Virus record (IMG/VR): IMGVR_UViG_3300022602_000477
Location: 1 to 21,638 of that record
Source: a virus
Reading direction: 5' to 3' (one strand)
Length of the DNA stretch: 21,638 bases
The position numbers were made by a program, and so were the translations under genes. Position 1 is the first letter of the stretch. Each line of letters begins with the position of its first letter. Positions 9,001 to 21,638 of the stretch are shown here, piece after piece. Below the pieces are notes generated by a model. It did no database searches. It was not told the DNA's origin and saw nothing but the letters and a program-made list of their open reading frames with translations.

Positions 9001-11437
9001 TCGATAAACTCATTGGTCCACTATGCTGGACAAATCTTGTACCGTAAGCGGCTGTATTACCTAAATCTCTAAGATTGCTTGTTCCAGGAAAAGATCCAAC
9101 AAAAATTGTTTCTAAATTATCAACAATAGAATTAACATGATCCGAGACTTCTCCAAGTGTGAAATCTCCCATAGCATTGTTTAATGGATTATTTTGTAAG
9201 TTGATAGGAACTTCATAATAACCTTTCTTGTTAATTGGTTGTGAAGCAAATGCTCTGATGGTTAATACATCTGTCGTAGCAATTGAATTAGTTAAAACAA
9301 TTATTTTATATTGCTGACCATCGACAATTGACCACAAACTAGGATCTAATCGTTTTCCGTTAATGTAAATTCTAACAACTAAATCATTTAAATTTGTGAT
9401 GTCATCAAATATATCTAAATTAAAATTATTTGTTTTATTTGATTTTTCGTAAATTTTTATTGCGGCTTGAACATTAGTTACCGCAGAAGTTTGCCAGCCA
9501 TTTTCGTAAACTATATTTCCAGAATAATCTAATCTAATCAGATATCCTACATTTATATTTTGTGTTATTAGTTCGGCACTTTGTTTAAATTGAAAACTGT
9601 CTGTAGCAAGATTAAAATTAAAAACTATGTCACCAATATTGCTAACATTTTTATAACTTAAAGGAAACCCTAAGGTCTTATCTGCTAATCCTGATCCAAC
9701 TTTATATGAAAAAACTTGTGTTCCTTTAAACGTAGATCCTGGATAAGTCTCAGTATTACCATAACTTATTCCATTGTTGTCTACGATATCAAACAAAGGA
9801 GGCTGATTAGTATTTGTTTTTTGCTGTCCTTTAATCCAAGTAGTTCCGTTAAACCAATACATTAAACTTTGATTTTCGATACCTTGGTTAACTAAGACAG
9901 TTTGATTTAATTCAGGTGATGAGATTTCAACAAGATGTATTTGTTTACTTCCTGTACTAAGATGTCTTACATCAACAAATTCTACACGATACACTTTGTT
10001 TACTACTAACGGATCGGTGTCTGCTGTAAACAATATTGTTTGATTAGCGGATAATGAAATCCCGTCAATGTTGTATCCGGCAGATCCTTCAATAGTAGAA
10101 AATACATCTGTTGTAAAATTATCAACTAAATCTATATCGGCTATAGCAGAAGTTCCAAAATTAAATAATTTTAAATCTGCTGTAAATTCAATAATAGGTC
10201 TAGTAGCTCTTGCTAACTGATCTAAATTAGGAACACCGCCATTAGCAATAGCACTAGAATTAATCACATCTTGATGGAACCAACGATTGTATCTCGACCA
10301 TGGATTGTGATCTCGGCTAGCACGGTTTATAACAATATAATCTGCTATTGCGGCATAACCAGTGGCATCGCTGAAGGGTTCTTGGTCAAAAGGCGTATTA
10401 TCAAATTCAACAGTTTGTGATACAGTATAAGGACTAACAATTTCTAAAACTGACTGAGGTACTAGTCTGATAGCTGTACCTACGCCTTCTACATAATAAT
10501 TTCCAGTAGCATAAGTAGACGGAGTAACATTGCCGCCAAAATTTACTTTCATGCCGTTGGTCAGTGATGTACCATTGTTTAATTTGTAAGTTTTCTTACC
10601 TAATACATCAGAAGATACATCAATATATGTATTTTGGTCAATATCAAAAATTTCAATAACGCCGCCAAGATTAATATCGTTTTCGCTTTGATAGTAAATC
10701 ATTGTCGGAGCATCATCAGCAATAGTCCAAGTAATTGTACCTTGCTGAACTCCAAAATTATCTATACCGCTTTCTAAGTATCTATCTATTTTACCTGTTG
10801 ATCTCGATAATTTAAAACTAAAAGCATTACCTGGACTATTAATTTCAAATGTATAAGTCTGGCCACGATATAATTTTAGTACAGGATTTGGTGTAAAGCC
10901 GTTAGGTGTAAAAACATACTGGCTATCTTCGCCCACTTGAACTAAATCTACTGTATAAGTACTAACGACTTTTTGTTGTTGTCCATATATTGTTACTGCT
11001 TCGGGTCCGTAAGGCAACCAATAATAATTTTGAAAATTAACTATCTTATCCCAATCGATATGCGGATCCCAACTATAAAATTCCTCAGCATTTATTCTAG
11101 CATGATTATCAGTATTGCCACCAAACACCCCTAGCTGATTAATATAGTCAATATAGTCTTTATAAAAAGTTACATTGTTTAGACTGTCTTTAATTACAAC
11201 ACTTGGTTCTAATTGATAATTTTGTCTACTTTGATCGATAGCATTAACATAGATATCAGAGCCATTGGCTGCCTTAGCATTTTTTCTACCGATATATCCA
11301 TTGACCTTTTTTACTGTACCTGGCTGATATAACTGATCCAGTGTTGCTTGTAAAAACTTTTTATTGCTCTGACTTTGATAAAATGCCGGCAATAAATTTG
11401 AGGTAAGATTATTATTTCCAAAAGGCGTATTAGCCAT
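1..11437 (-). CDS. Giant mosaic baseplate/tail structural protein in the gp7 position, 3' end outside the window
   Basis: One open frame runs from an ATG at 11437 to the left edge without a stop, giving at least 3,812 residues. The start overlaps the gp6 stop by 8 bases (ATGGCTAA), with GGAG upstream. Its place just after gp6 is that of T4 gp7, a wedge protein of about 1,030 residues, so a virion wedge or peripheral baseplate role is inferred from position. Regions in order: an N-terminal part with YYWLPYGPE near residue 137; a cupredoxin-like segment about 172-264; a DGISLSANQ...NKVY motif about 450-480; YNRWFHQDV near 380; three W...G..V.Y.G..Y repeats between 1426 and 1779; FG-GAP-type blades between 2149 and 2992; nine GxGY units between 2230 and 3802. 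No signal peptide or membrane segment was seen. The composition, rich in N, T, S, Y and G, suits a beta-rich virion protein. That it is a structural protein is fairly certain; homology to gp7 itself is not shown. Confidence 0.85.
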   Translation of the reverse strand, partial: MANTPFGNNNLTSNLLPAFYQSQSNKKFLQATLDQLYQPGTVKKVNGYIGRKNAKAANGSDIYVNAIDQSRQNYQLEPSVVIKDSLNNVTFYKDYIDYINQLGVFGGNTDNHARINAEEFYSWDPHIDWDKIVNFQNYYWLPYGPEAVTIYGQQQKVVSTYTVDLVQVGEDSQYVFTPNGFTPNPVLKLYRGQTYTFEINSPGNAFSFKLSRSTGKIDRYLESGIDNFGVQQGTITWTIADDAPTMIYYQSENDINLGGVIEIFDIDQNTYIDVSSDVLGKKTYKLNNGTSLTNGMKVNFGGNVTPSTYATGNYYVEGVGTAIRLVPQSVLEIVSPYTVSQTVEFDNTPFDQEPFSDATGYAAIADYIVINRASRDHNPWSRYNRWFHQDVINSSAIANGGVPNLDQLARATRPIIEFTADLKLFNFGTSAIADIDLVDNFTTDVFSTIEGSAGYNIDGISLSANQTILFTADTDPLVVNKVYRVEFVDVRHLSTGSKQIHLVEISSPELNQTVLVNQGIENQSLMYWFNGTTWIKGQQKTNTNQPPLFDIVDNNGISYGNTETYPGSTFKGTQVFSYKVGSGLADKTLGFPLSYKNVSNIGDIVFNFNLATDSFQFKQSAELITQNINVGYLIRLDYSGNIVYENGWQTSAVTNVQAAIKIYEKSNKTNNFNLDIFDDITNLNDLVVRIYINGKRLDPSLWSIVDGQQYKIIVLTNSIATTDVLTIRAFASQPINKKGYYEVPINLQNNPLNNAMGDFTLGEVSDHVNSIVDNLETIFVGSFPGTSNLRDLGNTAAYGTRFVQHSGPMSLSMYHITSESNNIVRAIEQSRDDYNHFKRIFVSTAENLGIDGDPVKLVDIILEKINSNKPKTAPYYFSDMIPYGANIRTDIIVVDYRIKTYPLSTVFTLTTLSNKAVGVYLNNHQLIYGKDYIFNDQGFVVMDNSLSMNNGDVITTLEYETTDGCFVPETPTKLGIYPKYEPKIYLDTSLVAPQMMIQGHDGSQVLAYGDYRDYLILELEKRIFNNIKVEYDPDIFDINSVVPNYNKKNAYTRDEFNEVLAPNFYLWAKDVGINFSKPLSYDINNSFTYNYSRNSAPDGTSLPGYWRGVYRWLLNTDRPNICPWEMLGLSIEPSWWTQVYGPAPYTSDNRVMWQDIADGMLRPPGVAPIYRADYVKPFLINHIPVDENGNLVSPLVSTLALGQVKPSIDFEFVFGDVAPVEASWRRSSHYPFSVLIASMLLTPANTFGVLLDRSRIVRNKAGQLIYKDTGLRIRPQDIMLPSISSSTTRLQTAGIINYVVNLILNYIFSNNLKSYDGYANDLSSIAVQLSYRVGSFTNQDQFNLLLESKTPSSTGSVFIPKEDYSIFLNSSSPTRKLTYSGVIITKLQDGYQVSGYSLTKPYFNYYTFNQPGANINVGGISENFSNWTANEQYAAGSIVKYNNGYFKTLTTITTGSQFDPTQFIAIPSLPISGGVTANFRKSWDKTQVYTAPYGYSFSKVQDVVDFLLGYGEYLKDQGFIFNQYNTNLGVVSNWETSAKEFMFWTTQNWSSGQDKWSDWTQNIAVPYGTIVRYNGEYYSATRNVPASNVFDYNSFTKLDGLSVSGASVISLSPAAGNIEFNTPLNVVDDINNLFNRYEIFKVNGTAINTADLDSYRKNNTVNYSPRNTDGIYGASFYLVQHEHVVILNNNTIFNDTIYNPESGYRQERIKISGYITTNWYGGLDIPGFIFDAAKIQNWQQWQDYNLGDIINYQGYYYSANKFLPGSATFDITQWTELANKPSSQILPNWTNIATQFQDFYSLDVDSFDSAQQTMGQHLIGYQKRQYLDNIIQDDVSEFKFYQGMIREKGTQNVLNKLFDVLSSENKESLVFYEEWAIRVGQYGAAHGFQQIEFTLDEGLVRNNPQGYTLVDKIDKNLNPFIIQILPSDVYLPSNNYDSNPWPALNNYQPLLASAGYVNSKDVSISLGQLSDILTYDPTKYTDGNYVWCAFAPPPYYWNVYRYTLKYATGVINSVTSNTSVKPNTVTITVPTTVTFSVGDYIGITGTQKINGFYSIVAVGTNTFTINLAVGAVLAPFNDLSTIEVFYFISQRSLNSSIDQLESLLPITPVTGQLLWTDIKSSTNSNWASWIYNPVYSKSTILDQVNTTNHNFGRAIAMTKTGDAAAITSSDGQTAIYLKAGILTNWTRNQLIQTPSISTNYTTSGVQGTVEAFNVSGLSLTITLTSGGSGYRPNSGTQIYSNVPLSGGSGSGAIANITVFNGTVTTVKLIRFDTQYINGETLTADPRYLGGVVNTPVEIQVSNTCGSGYNNNQTGTTVFPNVPLSYVSSGTGDGTATATLTVTNGLVTSLILNYGGSGYQVGDQLTVNSSYLGGSGSGFSVLVGAINKNSRSSAATTIAISNDKQWLAIGSPTSGYVATNYKGIYSVPNSTDYIAKSIVTDGVNYYQTTGALLHQYTGITGVTQNQAQGARFNVVVIGSNYTVNVISGGAGYKVGNKIVILGSQVGGIDTVNDITIVVQTVAQASITSITWSSVGTPPQTYTSLAGSVLLGSGATFTVSPLLTGYKVIVSGTGTGYLAGDQILINGSKIGGQDIINDLLITLPTPISGFINGYQIVAPYGVSAWNKIPYVPVDTSTVSNNSSNTNQGVISLYQKSFGNAYQLADSIVSPSIGLDSSHVTGEQFGSTLTFNTNELYIGATGYNNNTGRVYKLIYTSNIKASSAYNPIGSSYATLVVTSTTGITAGLVVQGTGFTSGQTVTAVINSTTLELSGSPDSTPAGILNFVVTGWQYDATYTGATTGSNFGSSIVVSADSSTLAIAAGGGSQNGLVKIYKNSGSGFALSQTITGSTHSFASSISISDDAEYVAISNLSVSTSGILIYPLLFTGQYDTVHTSYITPRPDVSGVFGNKISFMNNYNTLVVFSQVSSSGRIDIYDRYDTKWVYSETVDPTGSNTDGLGTGFSVGANQIFAGAPNATENSFNNAGVIYNYYKLPNTYTWAIHTNQVAIPDVKKIKKAFLYNKASGSLLKYLDVVDPLQGKIPGPAEEEIRYKTFYDPATYSVGTSNVVVNTASIWSKQQVGQLWWDLRTAKFINSYDQDIVYRNSTWNQLATGASIDIYEWVSSSFKPSQWDAQADTNAGIAIGISGKSLYGDTVYSMTQSYDKISKTFKNTYYFWVKNKAVIPYVTGRNMSALDVANLIANPRGQNYTYLAITGTNTFSLTNAKGYLSSSNVVLSVEYWTIDKTDQNIHTQYKMISNDPNINLPKTVEQKWFDSLCGIDSQGKVVPDPRLPFKIRYGVENRPRQSMFINRFEALKQLIEYANQVMITNQISELNISSLESYDKEPTVVTGLYDLALDTDTELSYTNASSFASPNLVPVIVNGKVTGIIINSSGKGYAPSINSVSTSPYIEIVGSGSGAVVRATINTLGQVTGATVISQGNGYDNNTRCVIRNYAVLVHSDSQANNNWSIYTYDPVYKQWSRTLTQSYDVRNYWTYDDWYASGYNQYTLEDYSVNTFTDLNSLNSQIGQIVRIKMSNNGGWLLLEKYANVNSVDWTQSYKTVGIQNGTIQFKSSLYNFSATDVGYDSSIFDGEGFDVVAATELKIILNAIKNNIFVNDLKQEYLNLFFNSVRYVFSEQVYVDWIFKTSFVKAQHNVGMLDQPVNYPVDNLANFEDYVAEVKPYRTKVREYVSNYESLDTAQLPITDFDLMPIYENDKVGLIGVTVQNGKLVAGDTAIQTYPWKFWLDNVGFIVTELILIDGGSGYNIPPHVVFTSLSGTGATGRAFINNGKVTRIVLLTPGSGYLDVPEVVLDG
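2..190 (-). repeat. GxGY beta repeats, cluster 3 (two units at the window edge)
   Basis: GGSGYNIPPHVVF (tyrosine 3763) and GSGYLDVPEVVLDG (tyrosine 3802) form two adjacent units joined by a GTGATGRAFINNGKVTRI linker. The second unit reaches the window edge in the same reading frame, so more units may follow outside the window. Confidence 0.6.
1088..1300 (-). repeat. GxGY beta repeats, cluster 2 (two units)
   Basis: GKGYAPSI (tyrosine 3395) and GNGYDNNT (tyrosine 3441) flank a GSGSGAVVRATI strand and turn. They have the same unit design as cluster 1 but lie about 820 residues further along and outside the FG-GAP region, so the repeat family is scattered through the protein. Confidence 0.6.
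2462..4993 (-). repeat. FG-GAP-type repeats, probable interrupted seven-bladed propeller in the giant protein
   Basis: Seven units follow the FG-GAP pattern, with FG or a relative, a short strand, a turn, a strand ending near IG/AGA, then a G.(V)YK/IY strand. The anchoring F residues are near 2151 (NFGRAIAM), 2682 (EQFGSTLTF), 2802 (NFGSSIVVSADSSTLAIAAG), 2851 (SFASSISIS), 2905 (FGNKISF) and 2960 (GFSVGANQIFAGAP). A further unit without the FG lies near 2391 (TTIAISNDKQWLAIGSP). The last four are 49-55 residues apart, the usual blade size. About 240, 290 and 120 residues separate units 1-2, 2-3 and 3-4 and hold other modules. Classical Ca-binding DxDxDG loops are not evident. Confidence 0.55.
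3638..4795 (-). repeat. GxGY beta repeats, cluster 1 (five units)
   Basis: Tyrosines of five GxGY motifs lie at residues 2230 (GGSGYRPN), 2308 (CGSGYNNN), 2358 (GGSGYQVGDQL), 2491 (GGAGYKVGNKI) and 2575 (GTGYLAGDQI). Most units continue with a hydrophobic strand, then a G(S)GSG or GG(Q/I)D turn, and end in a V-rich strand. All five fall in the gaps between the first three FG-GAP blades. Such repeats recur in large structural proteins of marine T4-like phages as I know them; no specific function is established here. Confidence 0.6.
6101..7162 (-). repeat. Three carbohydrate-binding-like repeats in the giant protein
   Basis: Three units of about 43 residues share the pattern W...(Y)..G.IV.Y.G.Y(Y/F)......(F)D...(F/W). 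Unit A spans residues about 1426-1468 (NWTANEQYAAGSIVKYNNGY), unit B about 1556-1598 (PYGTIVRYNGEYYSA) and unit C about 1737-1779 (YNLGDIINYQGYYYSA). The pattern resembles the small chitin-binding or CBM5/12-type module, in which the aromatic residues line a sugar-binding face. The units are separated by roughly 90 and 140 residues of other sequence, so they are dispersed modules and not a tandem array. A glycan-binding role is inferred; they could be structural only. Confidence 0.55.
10645..10923 (-). other. Cupredoxin-like segment of the giant protein (residues about 172-264)
   Basis: The segment contains LYRGQTYTFEI, then PGNAFSF, then a GT(I)TW stretch, DDAPTMIYYQ and finally NLGGVIEI. 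The spacing resembles the end of a cupredoxin fold, where related sequences read HPF...GT...DAP..LYYQC..H..M.G.I.I. Here the usual metal ligands are replaced: C by S, H by N or D, and M by L. If the fold is right, this copy probably binds no copper and serves as a structural beta-sandwich. The assignment rests on motif memory only. Confidence 0.4.
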
Positions 11438-14400
11438 TAGATGCTCCATTTGTTGCGCTGGTTATGTTTTGTGTATTAATAACTGTTGTCAATGCATCGC
11501 CTGTTATTGTTTTCAAGTTAGCACTAGTCAATCCGGATACTATAACAACATCACTGGCCTGAGCACAACTAATAAAAATTTGATTGCTAGGACATTGTAT
11601 TTCAAACAAGCTACCAAAGTACTGTCCGGCTTGCTTTGGAACGATAACAAAACTAGTAATATCAGGATTTAATTGTGTTAATACATAGGTAGACAATTCT
11701 GTAAAATAGAATGTGTCTCCAAAATTCCAGTTATCTAAACTAAAGAATGTGTTAATAGCTGTTAACACCCGAGAAATAATGTTACTAGTACTTGCTGTAC
11801 TGCTAGCATTTTGTACTACGTTAAATGTTGCTTGTAAATTTAATTCAGCTTGAGATCCAAACAACAATTTGTAACTAACTGGATGATAGACAATTTCATC
11901 GCTAATAGATTTTACCAAGTTTAAATTAGGGCTTAGTTGACTACTCAATTGATTACTGCTTGGAGGCAATGGTTTAGTAGCGATAGCGCCGGCAATCCAT
12001 TGTCTAAATGTAGTGTCGTATGTTTTGGTTAAGACATATACATCCATAATATTACTAGCACTAGGATCAATACGACTGTCATAATCAGCACTATGTGTAT
12101 ACTGGAATTTCAAGTTATCTCGGCCGACATACACTTTATAATCTAGTGTTGGTACAAAACCTTGTCCGTTCATATACTGAGCCACATAATTTGTGTCTAC
12201 AAAATAATAATATTTTCCATCAACACCACTACCTGGTTTGGTTGATAAAATTGTAACTATTGGATTATTTGGATCGTTATACACATAACGATAATCTTCT
12301 TCGCCCTGACTAATTAAATACTTTTCTTGTACAATATAAGTTGTAGATCCATTTGGGGCAACAATATCTAAAAATAATTGAGGATTGTCAACAATTCCGC
12401 TGTTTGTAGTATCGGCAAAACTGACAACAATTTTACTTGGGTCAATATATCCGTCTTGGCCGTTGTATTCACTCACTACATCCCAGTCATAGTTTAGTGT
12501 GAATGGAGTTGTATAAGAAGGAGGTTGTGTGTTAATGCTTAAAATTTTGATGTTGTCTTTAACTATAGCAGAATTAATAACATCATAGATTTTTGTGTTA
12601 GTATCAAAATAGAATGTAACTTGTGTGTCGCTTTCAAATACATATCTCAATTCTCTTGTAGTAATTGTATAGTATTCGTTGTTAGTCGTAAACAATAAAA
12701 TCCAGCTAGAATCCTTATTGGCATTTGTAAGGTCGCCTTGATTACCTAAACTAAAAGAGTCTGTTGTGTTTAAATTTGTTTCAAATATAATTTGCCAGCT
12801 TTGTGTAGTACCATTGTAACTTAGTCCAAATGGTTTGTTAGCAAACACTAGATCAATCATAGTTGTTATAACTGAACTACTAAATGTGCGAGTAAAGCTA
12901 GGAATGATCTGACTAATAATAGCACCGTTAGGAATAGATTTGTTTAGCATTATAGCACCATATCCGCTAGACAACACTCCAGTATAAGAACTATCTACTA
13001 GTAAACCTCTACCATCTCCTGAAACAGATACAACTTCTGCCCATAAGTATGAAGATGCGCCCGACTGAGTAGTGTCTCCAGTGGTCAATATATTATTCTT
13101 GCTTGTATCAAAAAACTGTGTATTGGAGTTAGATACTGTAAACTGTATTAATGATCCCGGTGTTAGATATTGTAATGAAGTATTTGTATAACTACCTACT
13201 TGTAAGGGACTGGTATTAGAAATTGTATCAACATATCCAGTAGAATTAGTAGTAGTTGAAGTTGTTTGATTCCAAGCAACATTACTATTAGTCAAAGAAA
13301 TTACATACTGCTGATAAAAGAAATTTCTTAAATTGGGATCATTTAAAATATCATAGATCTGACCTAATATAACTCCTTGGATATCGGTTTGTGTTATGTA
13401 ACTAAATGTAGAACTAGCAATAAAAGGTTCTGTATAGATAACACCATCGTCGGCAAATAAATTTGTACTAGAATATTTGCCGGTTGGGTCTGTCAAATCA
13501 AAATAACGACTAATACCGCTACTTGTTCTGTTAAGAGCCTTAACCTTAGCAACATCTGTACTTGCACTCAATGGACTAATATTATAATCTTCGCCTGTAA
13601 TCATACGATTCTGCGTATAATATGTTTGCGGAGCATTTGTTTTTACATTAGCATTTGTTTCGCTAATAGCAGAATTTGATACGGTAGTTTGTAATGATAA
13701 ACTAATAGTTAAAATTTCGTTTGTACCAGATGCGCTGGTATAAGGGATATCTATATTAACGTTTCTAATATCTGCCGGAGTTACTGTATAACTTAAATTG
13801 TTGCTAACTCTGTAGTATGTTCTAAACTCACCTAGCGGCAAATCTCCAAATATGCCGTCGCTGAATTGTAAACTTACGGCATCGGTCGCTCGTGTAATGA
13901 CACTATAAATGGTTTTAATCTTACTGTTTAAACTGTTATAGATAATGTTGTTACCTGTAGTGGAAGGAACCTGTGTCCATAAAGTAGACTCAAGACCATT
14001 AGTATCTAATTGATACAACCAAAGATCGGTATTATTAATATTTTGTGTAGCAATATCAATCTGTTGATTACTACTCGGCTGTGTTATTGTAAAATTACCT
14101 ACTCCTAGTGATCCTTGAGTAAAGTTAAAAAAGAATCCTGTTCCGGCACTACCGGCACCATATCCGTCATCTTTGTAAACACAAGCTATGCTATTGGCAA
14201 TTTTGGGAGGTTCTTCATAGATATATGGTTGGTTAGCAAATGTTGTACTAGTAATTTCAAAATTCATATTTCGACCGGCAACAGGTTTATTAAAACTGTA
14301 AACAGGCACATCTGAATTTGTAGCATTGAATCTATACTGGGCTGTCGGAACTCCGTAGATAGTAGCATGGTCCGACGGATTGCCGTATTGTTGTGTCTGA

Positions 14401-14894
14401 GGCATTGCAGCATTAAGCACACTAATAAATTGATCATACCAGTTAGGATTTGAGCTATCATTCCAAGTAATATATTGTCCTGATAGGTTTCTACCATTGC
14501 TGTCTAATACCGCTTCTGTGGTAGAAATTACGCTAAATTTAAGCAATCCAGTAGCGGCGGTATTTCGTTTAGCATTGTAACCAATCATACGTGCTAGTCT
14601 TAACACGCTGTCACGACGACTAGCTAGTTCTAAGAAGTTTTCACGAGCATTTAAATCAACACGGAAAGCTATGCTTTGGCCCACATAGGCAATAAGATCA
14701 ATTAGGGCAAGGTATTCGCTTGATTCGATGTAGTCGTTAAAATCTTCTGGGAAATTTGTACGGATATAATCAATCATTACACGACGTAGGTTGTCAAAGT
14801 CGTAGCTTTGGAAGTCGGCATTCTTGAATGATTGATAAATTTTCTGCCAGTCTTCGCTGACTAACAGGTTGTTTAGTCTATCCGTTGAGCTCAT
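11430..14894 (-). CDS. 6: Baseplate wedge protein gp6 (baseplate J-like), enlarged
   Basis: The product has 1,154 residues. The N-terminal 130 residues carry the gp6 signature, including DYIRTNFPEDFNDY, a helical stretch ending FRVDLNARENF and LARMIGYNAKR. The C-terminal part (about 1040-1100) has FGDTFYFTELSTYVLTQLNP, typical of the gp6/baseplate J end domain. In T4, gp6 dimers join neighbouring wedges into the ring that surrounds the hub and bind gp25, gp53 and gp7. T4 gp6 has about 660 residues, so this protein is roughly 1.7 times longer; the extra length is mid-protein, with beta-rich sequence such as FGLSYNGTTQSWQIIFETN. The ATG at 14894 is preceded by TTAGGA and lies 47 bases after gp25. 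The 3' end overlaps the giant gene by 8 bases, suggesting coupled translation. Confidence 0.9.
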   Translation of the reverse strand: MSSTDRLNNLLVSEDWQKIYQSFKNADFQSYDFDNLRRVMIDYIRTNFPEDFNDYIESSEYLALIDLIAYVGQSIAFRVDLNARENFLELASRRDSVLRLARMIGYNAKRNTAATGLLKFSVISTTEAVLDSNGRNLSGQYITWNDSSNPNWYDQFISVLNAAMPQTQQYGNPSDHATIYGVPTAQYRFNATNSDVPVYSFNKPVAGRNMNFEITSTTFANQPYIYEEPPKIANSIACVYKDDGYGAGSAGTGFFFNFTQGSLGVGNFTITQPSSNQQIDIATQNINNTDLWLYQLDTNGLESTLWTQVPSTTGNNIIYNSLNSKIKTIYSVITRATDAVSLQFSDGIFGDLPLGEFRTYYRVSNNLSYTVTPADIRNVNIDIPYTSASGTNEILTISLSLQTTVSNSAISETNANVKTNAPQTYYTQNRMITGEDYNISPLSASTDVAKVKALNRTSSGISRYFDLTDPTGKYSSTNLFADDGVIYTEPFIASSTFSYITQTDIQGVILGQIYDILNDPNLRNFFYQQYVISLTNSNVAWNQTTSTTTNSTGYVDTISNTSPLQVGSYTNTSLQYLTPGSLIQFTVSNSNTQFFDTSKNNILTTGDTTQSGASSYLWAEVVSVSGDGRGLLVDSSYTGVLSSGYGAIMLNKSIPNGAIISQIIPSFTRTFSSSVITTMIDLVFANKPFGLSYNGTTQSWQIIFETNLNTTDSFSLGNQGDLTNANKDSSWILLFTTNNEYYTITTRELRYVFESDTQVTFYFDTNTKIYDVINSAIVKDNIKILSINTQPPSYTTPFTLNYDWDVVSEYNGQDGYIDPSKIVVSFADTTNSGIVDNPQLFLDIVAPNGSTTYIVQEKYLISQGEEDYRYVYNDPNNPIVTILSTKPGSGVDGKYYYFVDTNYVAQYMNGQGFVPTLDYKVYVGRDNLKFQYTHSADYDSRIDPSASNIMDVYVLTKTYDTTFRQWIAGAIATKPLPPSSNQLSSQLSPNLNLVKSISDEIVYHPVSYKLLFGSQAELNLQATFNVVQNASSTASTSNIISRVLTAINTFFSLDNWNFGDTFYFTELSTYVLTQLNPDITSFVIVPKQAGQYFGSLFEIQCPSNQIFISCAQASDVVIVSGLTSANLKTITGDALTTVINTQNITSATNGASNG

Positions 14895-14912
14895 AATATG
14901 TCCTAATAAGTG

Positions 14913-14920
14913 TATTTATT
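14913..14920 (-). promoter_or_regulatory. AATAAATA box upstream of gp6, possible late promoter
   Basis: The minus strand reads AATAAATA 18 bases before the gp6 ATG. T4 late promoters use TATAAATA, and cyanophage late promoters are reported as NATAAATA, so this is a one-mismatch match to T4. AT-rich DNA yields such boxes by chance. It competes with the shared 13-base element just upstream for the role of late promoter. Confidence 0.35.
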
Positions 14921-14932
14921 GAATAAAATTAT

Positions 14933-14945
14933 GTGCGTAGTTTAT
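14933..14945 (-). promoter_or_regulatory. Shared 13-base element ATAAACTACGCAC, copy 1 (upstream of gp6)
   Basis: The minus strand reads ATAAACTACGCAC, beginning inside the gp25 stop codon and ending 38 bases before the gp6 ATG. An exact copy lies upstream of gp48, 41 bases before its ATG. The left half resembles the T4 late promoter box (TATAAATA). A promoter or transcript-start signal is the favoured reading. Confidence 0.5.
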
Positions 14946-15373
14946 TGGCTTGCCAATAGTCCGGCAGCTTGATCAAACTTTAATTGTAGATTTTGCTGTA
15001 TGTTATAAGGCAAATATGTCAATTTACATTCAATTTGTATACCTTGATCATATGGAGTTATAAGTATATTGCTGGCTTGAACACGTGGATCATAGTTCAA
15101 TATTTCATTTACATTTTGAAGTATTAAATCCTGTACCTCGGGTGTAAGAGGTTCAAATAATACTGTCCATATGATACTGCCAAACGCAGGCTGCATCAAA
15201 CGTTCGCCTTGACGTACATAAAAATGATTCAAAATATCTTGTTTGATTAATTCAAAATCATACAAGGCAAAATTCTGATTATCTTTATTAACTGTGCTAA
15301 ATCCTCTGTACATTTGCGGTGTAGGAGGATTAGCCTGTGCTGAAGTAATGGTTAATTTATTGTGTATGGTCAT
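14942..15373 (-). CDS. 25: Baseplate wedge protein gp25
   Basis: The product has 143 residues, close to the 132 of T4 gp25. The family core is clear: GERLMQPAFGS at about 56-66, LFEPL at about 72-76, a helix ending NEILNYDPRV at about 89-98, and a final strand pair. Gp25 is the small conserved wedge protein, related to the TssE sheath initiator of type VI secretion; it binds the gp6 core bundle and nucleates the contractile sheath. The ATG overlaps the spike gene stop as ATGA, with AGGAGA 5 bases upstream, so translation is probably coupled. The stop is followed by the 47-base gap before gp6. Identification is secure. Confidence 0.94.
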   Translation of the reverse strand: MTIHNKLTITSAQANPPTPQMYRGFSTVNKDNQNFALYDFELIKQDILNHFYVRQGERLMQPAFGSIIWTVLFEPLTPEVQDLILQNVNEILNYDPRVQASNILITPYDQGIQIECKLTYLPYNIQQNLQLKFDQAAGLLASQ

Positions 15374-17028
15374 GAATTCTCCTGATTTTTAGTAAATGTA
15401 TCAGTGGTTGTTGTATAGGTTTTCCAAGCATCTGGTACAGGAATAGCGGTAGCCGCTTCCCTATCAGTGGCATCAGGTTTGAACATTGTAGCATCTAAAT
15501 TTTCATGATGCGGGTATGGTTCTGTTGTTGGTATACGAGCTAATATACTTGTTAGTGTTACTCCGTCTGTTTCTGTTGGATTATCAATAGTTGGTAACGG
15601 ATCGGGAGCTGTGGCCGGACTAGCAGGGCCAGCAGAGTCAGCGATTCCTGAGTTAAAATTAATATTGCCGCCGTCAATGGCCGTATTGGCCGCCTTAATA
15701 GTAAAATCTCCTGAGCTGGATACAACGCTTGCTCCGCTTACTTTTAAATTTAATGCGCCACCTGTAGTAATATTAGTTGCGTCTCCAGTTGTTAAATCAA
15801 ATGTACTTTCGTAAGATTCTGCAACAGCACCTGAAACAGTTTCATCTTGAGTGCCATCTACTTTTATAGCAACATTCCCGTTGACAATGGTAATTTTATC
15901 ACCACCTACTTCAGTTTGATGACGTTCAGCAACTTTAAGATTGAAATTTCTGCCTGCTTCCATATTAATATCACGGTCAGCATAAAAATTAATATCATTT
16001 TGTGTACGTACACTAATACTGTCTTGTGCATAGATATCTATTTTACCATCACTAGTTAATTCTATCCAAGCGGTTCCACGACTGTTAGTGATATAAATTA
16101 AATCTTCACTATTATGTAATAATATTTCATGTCCTGTGCGGGTGCGAATTCTAAATAATTCATTGTGAGGGCGAGTATTATCGCCACTAGTATCACCATT
16201 TTCTACACTGGCATACACCGGAGGACCGTCTGTAGGAGCAGTCATGCGCAAGAACTTATCATCGCCATCGTCCATAACAAAAGTTGTGCCACCAAGACGA
16301 CTAACAGGATAATTTGGAATTAAATGTTCTTTTTTACCTACGGGCCCTGTTTTTCCGTTCTTGTCTAGCGGTCCTGGAGTACTGATACCAAAAACCATAC
16401 TAGGACTTTCACGTCTGGCACTACTAGTTGTAATACCTCTAATATCATCAAATATTAAACCTTGTGCGGCTAATATTTTAGCTAGAGGATGTTCGGGTTT
16501 TAATACTCTAGTGGCATCTGTTCTTGTTTCGTTATCATCTATCTTTTTATTATATTCTGCTACAGGAACACGACCATAGTTACCAGCATTATCGGGGTCC
16601 ACATCTTCAACTACTCGTTGTGTGGCCGCGATACCTGGCATCATAAAATTCATATTTTCAGCTTCACTACCTACACAACCGATCCAGTAACCACGCTTAG
16701 GATCGCCGTCAATGAAGATAATCATTACATAAGATCCTACATCCGGTGGAACCATCCACATACCATAACTTTTTTGTGTGTTATTATAGTCGTCAATTTG
16801 TCCTAGATAAGAACTACTAGTAACTCCCCAAAAGGGACTCATATATTTTACCTGATGTAGTTGTCCTTCTGCGCCCGACGTAGCTCCGCTGGGCCTAAAA
16901 ATTTCAACTTCTAATATGCCCATATAGGTAGGATCAATATTACTAATAACTTTAGCAATAAACGGACCTGGTTTAGGATCGGGTTGACTATTACTTGTAT
17001 AGTCTAATTGATTATCTTTTAAAGCCAT
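15370..17028 (-). CDS. 5: Baseplate hub spike protein, gp5-type (OB fold plus beta-helix), no lysozyme domain seen
   Basis: With the start used here the product has 552 residues. Residues about 18-120 look like the OB domain (PGPFIAKVISNIDPTYMGIL, then VGSYVMIIFIDGDPKRGYWIG). Residues about 292-460 form the needle, with short alternating strands such as GHEILLHNSEDLIYI, IDIYAQDSISVRT and NINFNSG, as in VgrG-like beta-helices. A proline-rich linker and a C-terminal EPYPHHENLD motif follow. The spike pierces the outer membrane at contraction. T4 gp5 has a lysozyme domain between OB and needle; here that stretch (about 125-290) shows no T4-lysozyme catalytic pattern. The start is ATG at 17028, overlapping the hub stop as TAATG, with AGAAGG 6 bases upstream; a TTG at 17046 adds six residues but has less support. 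Confidence 0.88.
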   Translation of the reverse strand: MALKDNQLDYTSNSQPDPKPGPFIAKVISNIDPTYMGILEVEIFRPSGATSGAEGQLHQVKYMSPFWGVTSSSYLGQIDDYNNTQKSYGMWMVPPDVGSYVMIIFIDGDPKRGYWIGCVGSEAENMNFMMPGIAATQRVVEDVDPDNAGNYGRVPVAEYNKKIDDNETRTDATRVLKPEHPLAKILAAQGLIFDDIRGITTSSARRESPSMVFGISTPGPLDKNGKTGPVGKKEHLIPNYPVSRLGGTTFVMDDGDDKFLRMTAPTDGPPVYASVENGDTSGDNTRPHNELFRIRTRTGHEILLHNSEDLIYITNSRGTAWIELTSDGKIDIYAQDSISVRTQNDINFYADRDINMEAGRNFNLKVAERHQTEVGGDKITIVNGNVAIKVDGTQDETVSGAVAESYESTFDLTTGDATNITTGGALNLKVSGASVVSSSGDFTIKAANTAIDGGNINFNSGIADSAGPASPATAPDPLPTIDNPTETDGVTLTSILARIPTTEPYPHHENLDATMFKPDATDREAATAIPVPDAWKTYTTTTDTFTKNQENS

Positions 17029-19442
17029 TAGGTTCCTTCTCCCCAACCATCGTTAGGTATATTTTTTGCGCCTTCTTCTGGCGATAGTTGAACAGAAACA
17101 TTTCCTATCGCATCTTTAATTATTTTAGATCCGTCTGCCAATAGCTGTGTACTGGATCCATCTAAGAATTTTGTTATAGCGGCTTCGGCCGCTTTAATTG
17201 GAGAAGATTCGGTTGGTTTTATTTCTGGCATAGATGATTCATACATAGGTCTTCGATTACCCACTAATGTCTGTGTAAAATCTCCGCCTTTGAAAGTGCT
17301 TGTAACATTTGTAACTCTGTATAACCCACTAAATTGCATAACTGGAACACTTTGACTCTTAGATCCAAAATCATATAATCCGGTAGTTTGATTTATATCT
17401 ATAGGAGTTCTAAAATTAACCATAACATCGACTTCGCCATTCTGATAGCTAACACTTCCGTCTAGATTTAAATTATAATATTTTGTAGGCTGCGCCGTGT
17501 AATTTCCCATGCCGCTTTGTGCTATCCAATAAGGATCACCTAAAATTTCTAAAGTAAGATCAGTCATGTCGGCACCGTGTGTAAGAGAATCGTGAAAAGC
17601 TCTAGCGGCTCGAATGTCTCTTGTTTCGACACCCCCGCCACCTAGTTTATCTGTACCGGCAAGCGTCTTAACGAATCTTACGATAGTATTACCAACACCC
17701 GGTGAACCGTCTGGTAGTTTTCCTGTGCCTGCTTGTTGAATAGCCGGATCTGGTTTACGATCGTCTGCTTGTCCAGTATCTTGAGCCTGTTTACTATCTT
17801 GACTTAGATTACCGCCATCTGGAGGAAGTGCTTTGAAGAAATTACTTTCATAGTGAATTTTAAAACTTTTTACACTGACATTTTTTCCAGTAAAGATATA
17901 ATCGTACTGCTTTATTGCTTGAAGTTTTAATCCTTCATAAGGAGGTTTTGTATTGACTGGTAAAGTTCCTGAACTAATATGTGCGCTATAGTCTATTACT
18001 CTATAAACTAATAATCTAGGTTTCATTCCGGTAACTTTACTAGTTGGTCCTGTGTAATATACTTGAGGATCTACTCTAAACCAACCTCTATAACCTTCTG
18101 TAGTAATATTAGCCGAATCAAATGCCGACACAACAAAATTACTGTTGAGCACAACTTGATTTATAGCATTAATAATATCAGTATCTTGTCTAAATTTAAA
18201 ATCACTTTCGTTTGGATTAACTGGATTTTGTGATCTGTCATTAATTTTTGTATCTGGATTGTAAACAACGTTGTCTTTGCCTACAGGAGTAGATCCTCTG
18301 CGTTTTTCATCAAAGCCCATCCGACTATTTCCAATAGTATTTACTGTAGCCGCGTCTTGTATTAATTGTCCGCTAGTTGTATCTCTTCCTAACCCTAGTT
18401 TTTTATAAAGTTGTGTAGCTAACACATCGCTAGAATCTACTGTAGCTTCTATAGCTGTTTCAATTTCTGAAATTGTTTGAGAATTAATTCCTGAAGAACT
18501 GATGTCTTTAGGAAATATAATTACTATCTCATCAGCTTTTTCTATTCCATTGGCACGTTGAATATCTTTCAACTTAGTGTTCAACGAAACTTGTAGACTT
18601 TTTGATCCGCTTTGGAGCATTTCTCTGACACTTGTACCTTTGGCGGCCATATCGCTTTTAAATTTTGAATGAACATCTGCTAACGCTTCTTGATTAACCG
18701 GAACTCCCTTTACTTTGTAGACCGCGCCTTGCTGATCTACTGTCATATCTATATCTGAAATTTTAAAAGGAATATATCTGTTAGTGCTAGGAATACTGAG
18801 TATGTGTCCTGTCTCAGTATTACCTCTAAATTCTATTGCCATGATAAATGGCGTACATGATCTCCAACTAACAGGTTTGCCGTCTTTAGATAAGGAATTA
18901 GCCAGATGCTGGATCGCTAGCAATAACATTCCCATACTGTAAGGTTCATAAACTGTAAATTCAATGTCAGTTACGTTAGTATTATGCCCAGCTTCATATC
19001 CTATTTGTTGCTGTAGTACAATATTGTCTACGTAAAAATCAAATTGTCCGTATGGAGTGTTTGCTCTGTTGTTAGGATCAGCATTACCGCTCTTAAATAA
19101 CAAAGGAAATTTTTGTCCTGCTCGATAAGTAGTATCTGGGTTGTGATAAAAATCGTCTGGTAATATACCTACACTGATATTATAAGTGTAACTAGCATAA
19201 TCAAATAAAGGATTAGGTAATGGTAATGGAATGTTTGCTGTTGGAGCGACTACTCGCGAAACTGTATTAAGGATTCCGCCAATACCATCTGTTATAGCAG
19301 TTAGGCCGCTGGCAAGTCCTCCAGTTATAGCACTAATAGATGGCAGGCCACCAGCGATAGTATTTTCAACTTTTGTAATTGCTGAACCTATACTATTTTC
19401 TACATTAGATACTATTGCTCCTGCGTCATCAAACAAACCCAT
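17028..19442 (-). CDS. Baseplate hub protein, probable gp27 counterpart
   Basis: The product has 804 residues. It sits between gp53 and the spike gene, where a gp27-like adaptor would be expected. Residues 1-65 are hydrophobic and glycine-rich (GGLASGLTAITDGIGGIL). A conserved-looking block follows from 77 (NPLFDYASYTYNISVGILP), then DFYVDN and a YEPYSMGMLLLAIQ helix near 165-180. The C-terminal part has LEILGDPYWIAQSGMGNY (about 630-648) and FSGLYRVTNVTSTFKGGDF (about 704-722), a strand pattern seen at the end of gpD/gp27-type hub proteins. In T4, gp27 trimers join the gp5 spike to gp48/gp54 and the tube; gp27 has about 390 residues, so this protein is twice as long. A charged, low-complexity stretch (545-590) looks like a linker. 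ATG at 19442 has AGGA 7 bases upstream. The gene lies 1 base after gp53 and overlaps the spike gene by one base. Confidence 0.7.
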   Translation of the reverse strand: MGLFDDAGAIVSNVENSIGSAITKVENTIAGGLPSISAITGGLASGLTAITDGIGGILNTVSRVVAPTANIPLPLPNPLFDYASYTYNISVGILPDDFYHNPDTTYRAGQKFPLLFKSGNADPNNRANTPYGQFDFYVDNIVLQQQIGYEAGHNTNVTDIEFTVYEPYSMGMLLLAIQHLANSLSKDGKPVSWRSCTPFIMAIEFRGNTETGHILSIPSTNRYIPFKISDIDMTVDQQGAVYKVKGVPVNQEALADVHSKFKSDMAAKGTSVREMLQSGSKSLQVSLNTKLKDIQRANGIEKADEIVIIFPKDISSSGINSQTISEIETAIEATVDSSDVLATQLYKKLGLGRDTTSGQLIQDAATVNTIGNSRMGFDEKRRGSTPVGKDNVVYNPDTKINDRSQNPVNPNESDFKFRQDTDIINAINQVVLNSNFVVSAFDSANITTEGYRGWFRVDPQVYYTGPTSKVTGMKPRLLVYRVIDYSAHISSGTLPVNTKPPYEGLKLQAIKQYDYIFTGKNVSVKSFKIHYESNFFKALPPDGGNLSQDSKQAQDTGQADDRKPDPAIQQAGTGKLPDGSPGVGNTIVRFVKTLAGTDKLGGGGVETRDIRAARAFHDSLTHGADMTDLTLEILGDPYWIAQSGMGNYTAQPTKYYNLNLDGSVSYQNGEVDVMVNFRTPIDINQTTGLYDFGSKSQSVPVMQFSGLYRVTNVTSTFKGGDFTQTLVGNRRPMYESSMPEIKPTESSPIKAAEAAITKFLDGSSTQLLADGSKIIKDAIGNVSVQLSPEEGAKNIPNDGWGEGT
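17033..17040 (-). promoter_or_regulatory. Ribosome binding site fixing the gp5-type start
   Basis: The minus strand reads AGAAGGAA and then CCTA before the ATG at 17028. This strong Shine-Dalgarno site sits inside the last codons of the hub gene. It supports the TAATG-coupled ATG over the upstream in-frame TTG at 17046, which would place the binding site inside the coding region. Confidence 0.75.
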
Positions 19443-19443
19443 C

Positions 19444-19746
19444 TTATAATCCTAATACTGATTTTAATTTACTATTTTTTGGAATGTAAATTTGAACACC
19501 TGGCACAAAGTCTAGGATAGGATCTTGTATAACATCCATATTGCGTTGAGTAAATACCCACCATAGATTAACATCACCGTATAGGTCAAAGGCCAACAAG
19601 TCTGGACGATATGTATACTGAGGTTGTATAGTATACAAGAAGTCATCGTTCTCGGCAGGAACTGGTCTTATTTTAAAAGTATCTAAATAATTTTGTCTAG
19701 TCTGGGTAACATACCAAGGACTAGTAGATTTGTAAACGGCTGCCAT
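19444..19746 (-). CDS. 53: Baseplate wedge protein gp53 (LysM-like)
   Basis: The product has 100 residues, about half of T4 gp53 (196), which suits the short form with the core fold only. The family motif is plain: YRPDLLAFDLYGDVNLWWVF at 46-65, then QRNMDVIQDPILDFVPGVQIYIP at 67-89. This is a LysM-like fold that in wedges binds gp6 and gp25 and helps hold the wedge to the hub. The ATG is 2 bases after the gp48 stop, and the stop is 1 base before the hub ATG. No strong Shine-Dalgarno site is visible (GGAT about 12 bases upstream), so translation probably relies on coupling to gp48. Confidence 0.92.
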   Translation of the reverse strand: MAAVYKSTSPWYVTQTRQNYLDTFKIRPVPAENDDFLYTIQPQYTYRPDLLAFDLYGDVNLWWVFTQRNMDVIQDPILDFVPGVQIYIPKNSKLKSVLGL

Positions 19747-19748
19747 AA

Positions 19749-20753
19749 TTAGATGTATCCAAAACTATTATTAAGATATCCGCCTTGAACAAATCTATCA
19801 AGACTAAAGTTCTTGGCGCTGTTTCTACTGTACATTGGCATCAACTTAACAGTAAATTCACTTTTAGTTGGCACATGACTAACACCACCACTGGTTGTTC
19901 CGCCTACTCCAAATGATCCTAAAACTCCAGCTACATTACCTATGCCAGATGCTAAGTTACTTACCGTACCTGCGATGTCGCCAATGCCAGGAACGATTCC
20001 GCCCAATGCTCCGCCCAAAGATCCTGCTAGTCCACCTATACCCGAAGCTATTCCTTGAACATCTCCGGCAGCACTTCCGACTACATTAACTCCTATGTAA
20101 TCACAATCTTTATTAAGAGTTGTTGAAAAACTTGTAACAACTACGGGCACATTTTTAAACACATAGTTGCCGTAACCATTTAAGAACACAATAGGAGGAG
20201 GATTGCCTGCCTTTGGATCAGATCCTGTGAACATTTTGGTTAAGGAACGTAAATAATGAACCGCCGCAATCCAATACAATCCTTGTGTAGCATCTTCAAC
20301 GTTCATAGGAGCAGTAATTGTAATCTCTCCTGGATCACTATGTTGAAAAGCGTGGAATGAATAGTTGGAATGTACGGTGTTTAACTTTGAATAGGTAGCC
20401 GTTGAAGTTATGTTTATACTAGGTGTATATGGAAATATCAATCCCCCAGCATCCTTCAAAGGCTTTAGAACTGGACTGGTTTGGAAACTAGTCCAATTAG
20501 CCATACTTAATCTTACACGCCAGTCATTAGCATTGGCATCGCCACCAAAACTAGCTACAGCACTAACAATGTCCCCAACTGCTTCACCGGCAGCTGGTAA
20601 ATCGATTGCCCTTAGCGCACTGGCCAATCCTCCTGGGCTGTTAAAACCTGTGGAAACAGCGCCAGCAAGATTGCTAATCGTGTTTACAGCACTGGTACCA
20701 GCACCAATTAAATTTTGCGAAGCTGTTAGCGTTTGTGACAAGTCGAATGACAT
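19749..20753 (-). CDS. 48: Baseplate tail-tube cap protein gp48 (gp54-related)
   Basis: The product has 334 residues, against 364 for T4 gp48 and 320 for gp54. Family-like features are ANDWRVRLSMANW (about 75-87), a GLIFPYTPSI block (104-113), a helix with LYWIAAVHYLRSLTKMF (159-175), VPVVVTSFSTTLNKDCDYIGV (202-222) and a final VPTKSEFTVKLMPMYSR (294-310). Such proteins cap the hub and start tube polymerisation; with only one present, it may cover both gp48 and gp54. A glycine-rich hydrophobic insert occupies about 226-291, between two conserved blocks, and the first 70 residues are similarly rich in G, A, S and L. The ATG at 20753 has AGAGG about 6 bases upstream. It is the first gene of the minus-strand operon. 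Confidence 0.85.
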   Translation of the reverse strand: MSFDLSQTLTASQNLIGAGTSAVNTISNLAGAVSTGFNSPGGLASALRAIDLPAAGEAVGDIVSAVASFGGDANANDWRVRLSMANWTSFQTSPVLKPLKDAGGLIFPYTPSINITSTATYSKLNTVHSNYSFHAFQHSDPGEITITAPMNVEDATQGLYWIAAVHYLRSLTKMFTGSDPKAGNPPPIVFLNGYGNYVFKNVPVVVTSFSTTLNKDCDYIGVNVVGSAAGDVQGIASGIGGLAGSLGGALGGIVPGIGDIAGTVSNLASGIGNVAGVLGSFGVGGTTSGGVSHVPTKSEFTVKLMPMYSRNSAKNFSLDRFVQGGYLNNSFGYI

Positions 20754-20784
20754 ATAATACCTCTTTTGGTATAATATTTAGTTG

Positions 20785-20796
20785 ACTTTATAAAGT
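20785..20796. promoter_or_regulatory. 12-base perfect palindrome ACTTTATAAAGT
   Basis: ACTTTATAAAGT equals its own reverse complement and lies between the -35 and -10 boxes of the sigma gene promoter. It is a plausible operator for a dimeric regulator. AT-rich palindromes of this size do arise by chance. Confidence 0.35.
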
Positions 20797-20807
20797 GCGT
20801 AGTTTAT
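20795..20807 (-). promoter_or_regulatory. Shared 13-base element ATAAACTACGCAC, copy 2 (upstream of gp48)
   Basis: The minus strand reads TATAAACTACGCAC (with its leading T at 20808), matching the gp6 copy exactly over 13 bases and ending 41 bases before the gp48 ATG. It overlaps the -10 box of the opposing sigma70-type promoter. TATAAAC differs from the T4 late box TATAAAT in the last base. It is proposed as the late promoter of the structural operon. Confidence 0.5.
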
Positions 20808-20818
20808 AATTAACTATT

Positions 20819-20833: not shown

Positions 20834-21638
20834 ATGACAGCAAAAGTAAATTACTTAAACAACAAAGACATGTTAGCGGAAATACACAAATCCAAAAGCA
20901 GTTATTGTGTGTTTACGCAACCAGAATATCACCAATATGACATTATACTACCTAGCGTAGACAAAATAAACATCCGCAGTATAGCCGAAGCCAAGCGAAA
21001 CAGGGCTAAAAGACAAGGTGATCAAGAATATGCCAGACGCAAGGCCCTTGGCGAAAAAGTCAAACAAGCAGACTGTGAAGTCGATTATAAAAAAATTGCT
21101 AAAACTGATGTGGTATTTAGAATTATGACATTTGATCATATTCCGTTAAATACCGTTCGGAAAAAGAATCCTAAAAGCCTTGCTGACCATAGAGACAAAG
21201 TAAACTTTCCACCATTCCAACATTGGAAATTCAACGACCAAGATGAGCTTGTTTGTGTAGGAAAAAGTCACTGGAAGGGTGATTTGATTAAAGGCAAGTT
21301 CGATAAAGATGCGGGCCAAATAACTAACACCTTAGCCCGTATGATGTTAAAATTGTGTGAGAGATACGCTACTCGCGGCAACGTGCGTGGCTATACTTAT
21401 AACGATGAAATGAAAGGTCAGGCTATACTACAGTTAACACAGATTGGATTACAATTTGACGAAAGCAAATCGGACAATCCATTTGCTTATTTTACTGCGG
21501 CTGTGACCAATAGTTTTGTTCGTGTTATTAATATTGAAAAACGCAATCAAAACATACGTGATGATATCTTAGAAATTAACGGTATGAATCCAAGTTATAG
21601 CCGTACTGGTGCCGGCGAACATGCGGCGGCCATGAAAA
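20834..21638 (+). CDS. 55: Late-transcription RNA polymerase sigma factor gp55, 3' end outside the window
   Basis: At least 268 residues are encoded; the frame is open at the right edge. Residues about 143-245 are the gp55 core: SHWKGDL, then RYATRGNVRGYTYNDEM (179-193), QIGLQFDESKSDNPFAYFTA (203-222) and NIEKRNQNIRDD (233-244), corresponding to sigma region 2, which binds polymerase and the -10 element. Gp55 recognises TATAAATA-type late promoters in concert with the gp45 clamp and gp33. T4 gp55 has 185 residues in all; here about 140 residues precede the core, with a basic stretch EAKRNRAKRQGDQEYARRK (52-70) and a block FRIMTFDHIPLNTVRKKNP (95-113). The clamp-binding C-terminal tail would lie outside the window. 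It faces away from the late operon and has its own sigma70-type promoter. Confidence 0.92.
   Translation, partial: MTAKVNYLNNKDMLAEIHKSKSSYCVFTQPEYHQYDIILPSVDKINIRSIAEAKRNRAKRQGDQEYARRKALGEKVKQADCEVDYKKIAKTDVVFRIMTFDHIPLNTVRKKNPKSLADHRDKVNFPPFQHWKFNDQDELVCVGKSHWKGDLIKGKFDKDAGQITNTLARMMLKLCERYATRGNVRGYTYNDEMKGQAILQLTQIGLQFDESKSDNPFAYFTAAVTNSFVRVINIEKRNQNIRDDILEINGMNPSYSRTGAGEHAAAMK

Follow-up and report, generated by a model that had tools for sequence, protein, structure and literature searches.

In bacteriophage T4, RNA polymerase carrying gp55 starts late transcription at promoters with TATAAATA at positions -13 to -6 (PMC2988020, PMC7892883), and at -35 these promoters have 'no sequence conservation' (PMC7892883). 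In Aeh1 the late element takes the form CTAAATA (PMC1524935). The available part of a report on phage CBB (PMC5259590) gives ATAAATA at 35 sites and describes predicted ATAAATA late promoters at structural genes in CBB and GAP32, together with a promoter of host type preceding the gp55-like gene CBB_244; that part mentions neither a -35-like late element nor an overlap of promoters.

The DNA analysed here, hereafter the window, is a 21,638-bp virus fragment in IMG/VR. Structural and baseplate genes follow one another on its minus strand, and an 80-bp gap separates them from a plus-strand gene for a gp55-type sigma factor (Table 1). The nearest named phages are PA5oct-like Pseudomonas phages, followed by Sinorhizobium, Agrobacterium and RaK2/CBB-like jumbo phages.

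The divergent locus and the promoter of its sigma gene

In every named relative inspected, the first structural gene and the sigma gene point away from each other, and gp47- and gp46-like genes follow the sigma gene in most of these phages. The first-pass annotation had called the product of the first structural gene gp48. This name found no backing, as Pfam and PDB sequence searches with the gp48-type protein gave no match and PHROG describes it as a virion structural protein only; we keep 'gp48-type' and 'gp48-side' as labels. At the other end of the structural operon an ORF of at least 3,816 aa (2-11449, minus strand) runs off the window, and similarly large ORFs are found downstream of late elements in two relatives, G002 and G003.

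The sigma gene also runs off the window; in close relatives the full-length protein has approximately 277 aa. A PDB profile search matched it to gp55 in 7d7c (E 1e-10), with further matches to phrog_12791 and phrog_234, and Pfam gave no match. The predicted model (mean pLDDT 87.8) has T4 gp55 (7d7c_F) as its best fold match, with Z 12.5 and 3.6 Å over 120 residues at 24% identity. Judged by this model and the profile match, the protein carries the sigma domain 2 of T4 gp55 in both sequence and fold and would belong to the gp55 family. Approximately 110 residues are inserted before sigma domain 2.

Table 1. Positions of genes and predicted promoter elements in the window.
Feature	Position	Strand	Basis or remarks
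Remaining structural/baseplate genes	2..19746	-	gp53-like, 804-aa structural, gp5-like hub, gp25-like, gp6-like, giant 3816-aa ORF
Second putative bipartite late promoter, TAAACTACGCAC-N13-ATAAATA, before gp6 homologue	14913..14944	-	Conserved in 68 relatives
First gene of late structural operon (virion structural protein)	19749..20753	-	phrog_12050, E 1e-41
Putative late -10 element CTAAATA of structural operon	20775..20781	-	Conservation, enrichment, known T4-type element
-35 box TTGACT of sigma70-type promoter of gp55-type gene	20782..20787	+	Sequence, relatives, promoter scan
Putative -35-like element TAAACTACGCAC of structural-operon late promoter	20795..20806	-	Same 12-mer and spacing at gp6; weight matrix; IMG/VR scan
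-10 box TATAAT of the same sigma70-type promoter (17-bp spacer)	20805..20810	+	Sequence, relatives
gp55-type late sigma factor (first 268 aa)	20834..21637	+	phrog_12791, E 1e-72; T4 gp55 fold match

The sigma gene is preceded by TTGACT-N17-TATAAT (20782-20810), which in a promoter scan matches the consensus at 11 of 12 positions, its spacer lying within the 16-18 bp that go with TTGACA/TATAAT. Transcripts would be expected to start near 20816-20817. Conservation was counted on 110 distinct gaps, drawn from 149 loci with both genes among 161 collected; the relatives share ancestry, hence these counts do not represent independent events. The -35 box reads TTGAC[TAG] in 109 gaps and the -10 box TATAAT in 103, and the 17-bp spacing is kept in every one of the 110. 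The near-perfect sigma70-type promoter that the first-pass annotation had placed before the late sigma gene is therefore confirmed. TTGACA-type promoters also precede a small-gene cluster in large relatives, for which reason the promoter of the sigma gene most likely belongs to the early class and is used by host polymerase.

Other promoter-like features were seen nearby. A second match facing the sigma gene, ATGACA-N17-TATAAT with TG before the -10 (20747-20775, plus strand), also agrees with the consensus at 11 of 12 positions; its -10 is not strictly conserved in relatives. A perfect palindrome, ACTTTATAAAGT (20785-20796), was considered as a regulatory site and rejected, since most relatives have TTATTAAGT or AAATTAAGT there. 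The relative G003 has an early cluster at ~30.4-33.7 kb (L210) with near-identical promoters, TTGAC[AT]TTTTGG.CTAAGTGCGCTATAAT, and its upstream regions are rich in GGAGCGAAC just before start codons.

A putative two-part late promoter

On the late strand [AC]TAAATA (TATTTA[GT] on the plus strand) abuts the early -35 box in 109 of the 110 distinct gaps. Only two minus-strand gaps of this size occur in the window and both contain the element, CTAAATA at 20781 and ATAAATA at 14919. Furthermore, in three large relatives the coding strand upstream of genes is enriched in ATAAATA (43 v 19, 19 v 5 and 15 v 4). The late transcript of the structural operon is expected, from the position of the element, to start near 20769-20770.

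The first-pass annotation had assigned the late -10 role to TATAAACTACGCAC at 20808-20795 on the minus strand. The letters and the 4-bp overlap with the early -10 box were borne out, and TATAAAC within it is similar to TATAAATA across six bases. The role itself was not: TATAAACTA is not enriched upstream of genes in the three large relatives (1 forward and 1 reverse in each), on which ground the candidate was rejected, and CTAAATA at 20781-20775 is conserved instead. The gap of the RaK2/CBB lineage, moreover, retains TATTTAT (ATAAATA on the late strand) and not the block. The element was misassigned because the 14-mer contains a -35-like block, which sits 25 nt upstream of the conserved [AC]TAAATA in both operons, the late -10 being the CTAAATA beside the early -35. 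That TATAAACTACGCAC is itself the late -10 of the structural operon is thus scarcely credible.

The block, TAAACTACGCAC (20806-20795), lies exactly 13 bp upstream of CTAAATA and overlaps the early -10 box by 2 bp. The pair TAAACTACGCAC-N13-[AC]TAAATA occurs twice in the window with no mismatch (20806-20775 and 14944-14913), against 0.06 expected, and the second site, before the gp6 homologue, has no sigma promoter. In the 68 genomes with both promoters the block stands in the same register on the gp48 side and at gp6. A weight matrix built from gp6 promoters alone gave the gp48-side promoters of these genomes a mean score of 12.5 in the right register, with the other registers below -4 and shuffled sequences at -9.8 (sd 6.3). 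At gp6 the TTGAC and TATAAT columns are unconserved and the shared block is conserved; therefore the gp55 promoter does not account for the block. Both sites share columns -26 to -9, which are hence late, and columns -30 to -27 and -5 to -1 belong to the sigma promoter alone. The spacer between its two boxes, TGCGTAGTTT, is unusually conserved because it contains the late -35-like block, as the gp6 site shows. A matrix of spacer plus -10 matches mainly the sigma-gene gap and the gp6 late promoter. We had also considered the spacer as a generic early-promoter motif: AAGTGCGC does precede TATAAT in the G003 early cluster, but at another distance.

An IMG/VR scan for the exact pair returned at least 120 stretches at N13, compared with one at the wrong-spacing control N9. 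Among the 85 sites that were read, BLAST placed 46 before gp48-type and 28 before gp6-type genes, and the other 11 lie, by eye, before apparently divergent gp48-like or truncated ORFs. In seven large contigs, with the listed gp48 and gp6 sites excluded, 12 further matrix matches had [AC]TAAATA at offset 26-27, where 1.5 were expected; one is the gp6 site of contig G007 and the 11 new ones lie at a small number of genes, among them one of 202 aa and one of 330 aa. Strong bipartite sites were found only twice per genome. Collectively the aligned sequences indicate that the late promoter is bipartite, with a -35-like block shared by the gp48 side and gp6 in addition to the -10 element.

The block (TGCGTAGTTTA / TAAACTACGCA) might on another reading be bound by a regulator, of phage or host origin, that affects both promoters, for example by activating late and blocking early transcription, rather than serve as a -35 element of the late polymerase. 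TGCGTA/TACGCA does occur elsewhere and in other orientations near some late elements, as directly before ATAAATA in bidirectional late promoters, and the best fold match of the sigma factor is a protein with sigma region 2 only. However, the fixed 13-bp spacing to the -10 at both gp48 and gp6 in 68 genomes, with the block centred near -31, is best fitted by a -35 element, and we consider a separate regulator unlikely.

If the block is a -35 element of the late polymerase, some protein should read it. A region-4-like domain in the sigma factor was considered as the reader. Fold comparison of the whole model, which took in the ~110-aa insertion only as part of it, matched sigma region 2 and revealed no region-4 match; such a domain may still be present. 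The C-termini of the relatives' sigma factors are, by eye, acidic KRNEEASE-like tails with no obvious hydrophobic clamp-binding motif. Profiles for gp33 (phrog_254) and the sliding clamp gp45 (PF02916, PF09116), the co-activators at T4-type late promoters, had no match in relatives including RaK2 and CBB, a search that may miss remote versions; PA5oct was covered with phrog_254 and PF02916, and both of these matched the T4 positive control. A comparative study reports gp33 orthologues in jumbo phages of group 2 (PMC7824862); as a guess, therefore, the first candidate for the reader is a remote gp33 located on the beta flap.

Late elements elsewhere in the relatives show several further arrangements. 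At a 330-aa gene the element is only ~5 nt before the start codon (G002 35716, G003 66266, G004 34648 and G001 27476, all minus strand), so that the late transcript would have no leader or almost none. Bidirectional late promoters, in which a gap of 62-64 bp contains two [A]TAAATA elements pointing away from each other, are found at L197-L218 and others (G002 100643-100708, G003 124788-124851), and in these one of the two elements is directly preceded by TGCGTAT. Late elements of two neighbouring genes in two genomes are followed, near the expected start, by TATGCGTACATTA or TATACGTACTTTA (G002 148953 and 149506, G003 178183 and 178735, minus strand).

Superimposed promoters and a possible self-limiting switch

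The late promoter (20806-20775, minus strand) spans the whole -35/-10 region of the early promoter (20782-20810, plus strand), such that the late -35-like block coincides in part with the early -10, and the late -10 directly adjoins the early -35. The overlapping divergent promoters proposed in the first-pass annotation therefore stand, with the late elements placed differently, and so does the expected co-conservation of both signals in related gaps (sigma70-type promoter in 110 of 110, abutting [AC]TAAATA in 109 of 110, within the window's clade). The expected starts (near 20769 and 20816-20817) are ~47 bp apart, and RNA polymerase occupies more DNA than that. Given the overlap of the elements and this distance, simultaneous occupancy of both promoters is very unlikely.

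We propose the following model. During early infection the host RNA polymerase, carrying its main sigma factor, would start at TTGACT-N17-TATAAT and produce the gp55-type sigma. Polymerase carrying this sigma would then start in the opposite direction at the bipartite late promoter, in which we infer that gp55 recognises [AC]TAAATA at about -12 to -6, with TAAACTACGCAC at about -37 to -26, and would transcribe the baseplate operon. One polymerase would exclude the other at the superimposed promoters, and the accumulating late sigma would damp its own promoter. Self-limitation of gp55 by occlusion, as the first-pass annotation suggested, would fit this geometry. On balance we think it probable that two superimposed divergent promoters are present and that the polymerase of the late sigma excludes the early one, damping the sigma gene.

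Other lineages have other arrangements. The RaK2/CBB lineage has 26-28 bp between the late element and the TATAAT of the sigma gene in eight of nine cases, with overlapping cores; TAAACTACGCAC was not seen in its gaps. In the PA5oct-related lineage the cores do not overlap, and in 24 of 35 cases 58 bp lie between the late element and the early -10. The late promoter of PA5oct-related contigs nevertheless has ATAAAA-rich sequence roughly where the block stands in the window's clade, around -25 relative to the late element. In Phosso the early and late elements are far apart. Five loci (L294, L295 and L297-L299) have a late-type element directed towards gp55 upstream of its host-type promoter, which suggests positive feedback there. 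Promoter overlap thus appears common rather than universal, and since the arrangement varies between lineages the tight overlap is dispensable. The PA5oct, Phosso and L294/L295/L297-L299 layouts count against a general self-limiting role.

These layouts also bear on a plainer account, namely that both promoters are real, their overlap stems from genome compactness and exclusion is a side effect without regulatory weight, host-sigma promoters being shut off late anyway. Short divergent junctions do occur elsewhere in these genomes, and both promoter types persist in the PA5oct-related lineage and Phosso where the overlap is lost. Against this, each lineage keeps to an exact spacing (direct contact in the window's clade, 26-28 bp in the RaK2/CBB type), although shared ancestry could explain such exactness as well. 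We hold this account to be a serious possibility, if somewhat doubtful. The most extended version of our model is that a giant-phage clade uses a bipartite late promoter whose -35-like element, read by a putative partner of the late polymerase, partly replaces the role of the T4 clamp, and that the sigma promoter built into it makes a self-limiting switch; taken as a whole this is tentative and rather unlikely to hold in every part.

Comparison with known systems

The divergent gene order is the same as in CBB and GAP32. CBB differs in having a TGAAACG-type -35 in its gp55 promoter and a late promoter without a -35-like block. The lambda PR/PRM region, where overlapping divergent promoters exclude each other, likewise has two outward-facing starts with overlapping polymerase sites; here, unlike in lambda, the product of one promoter is the sigma factor on which the other is predicted to depend. 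At 80 bp, the gap is a natural circuit small enough for in vitro work with few proteins.

In the open-access literature, including a search with the motif string, we found no description of gp55-type late promoters in which a -35-like element is conserved. The model of a sigma factor that recognises a -10 element alone and relies on a sliding clamp is T4 late transcription. As in T4-type late promoters, [AC]TAAATA is found here as a -10 element ~20 bp before late structural genes, within the 10-25 bp before late gene start codons that is typical of the T4 type, and a gp55-family sigma is encoded adjacent. Unlike them, a 12-bp block is conserved at the -35 position in two operons, where the T4 type has no conserved sequence. 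If true, this would show that a promoter in two parts can serve a gp55 system, and it raises the concrete question of what reads the second part. From the sequence comparisons, it is the conserved -35-like element that sets these putative gp55-type late promoters apart from the T4 model.
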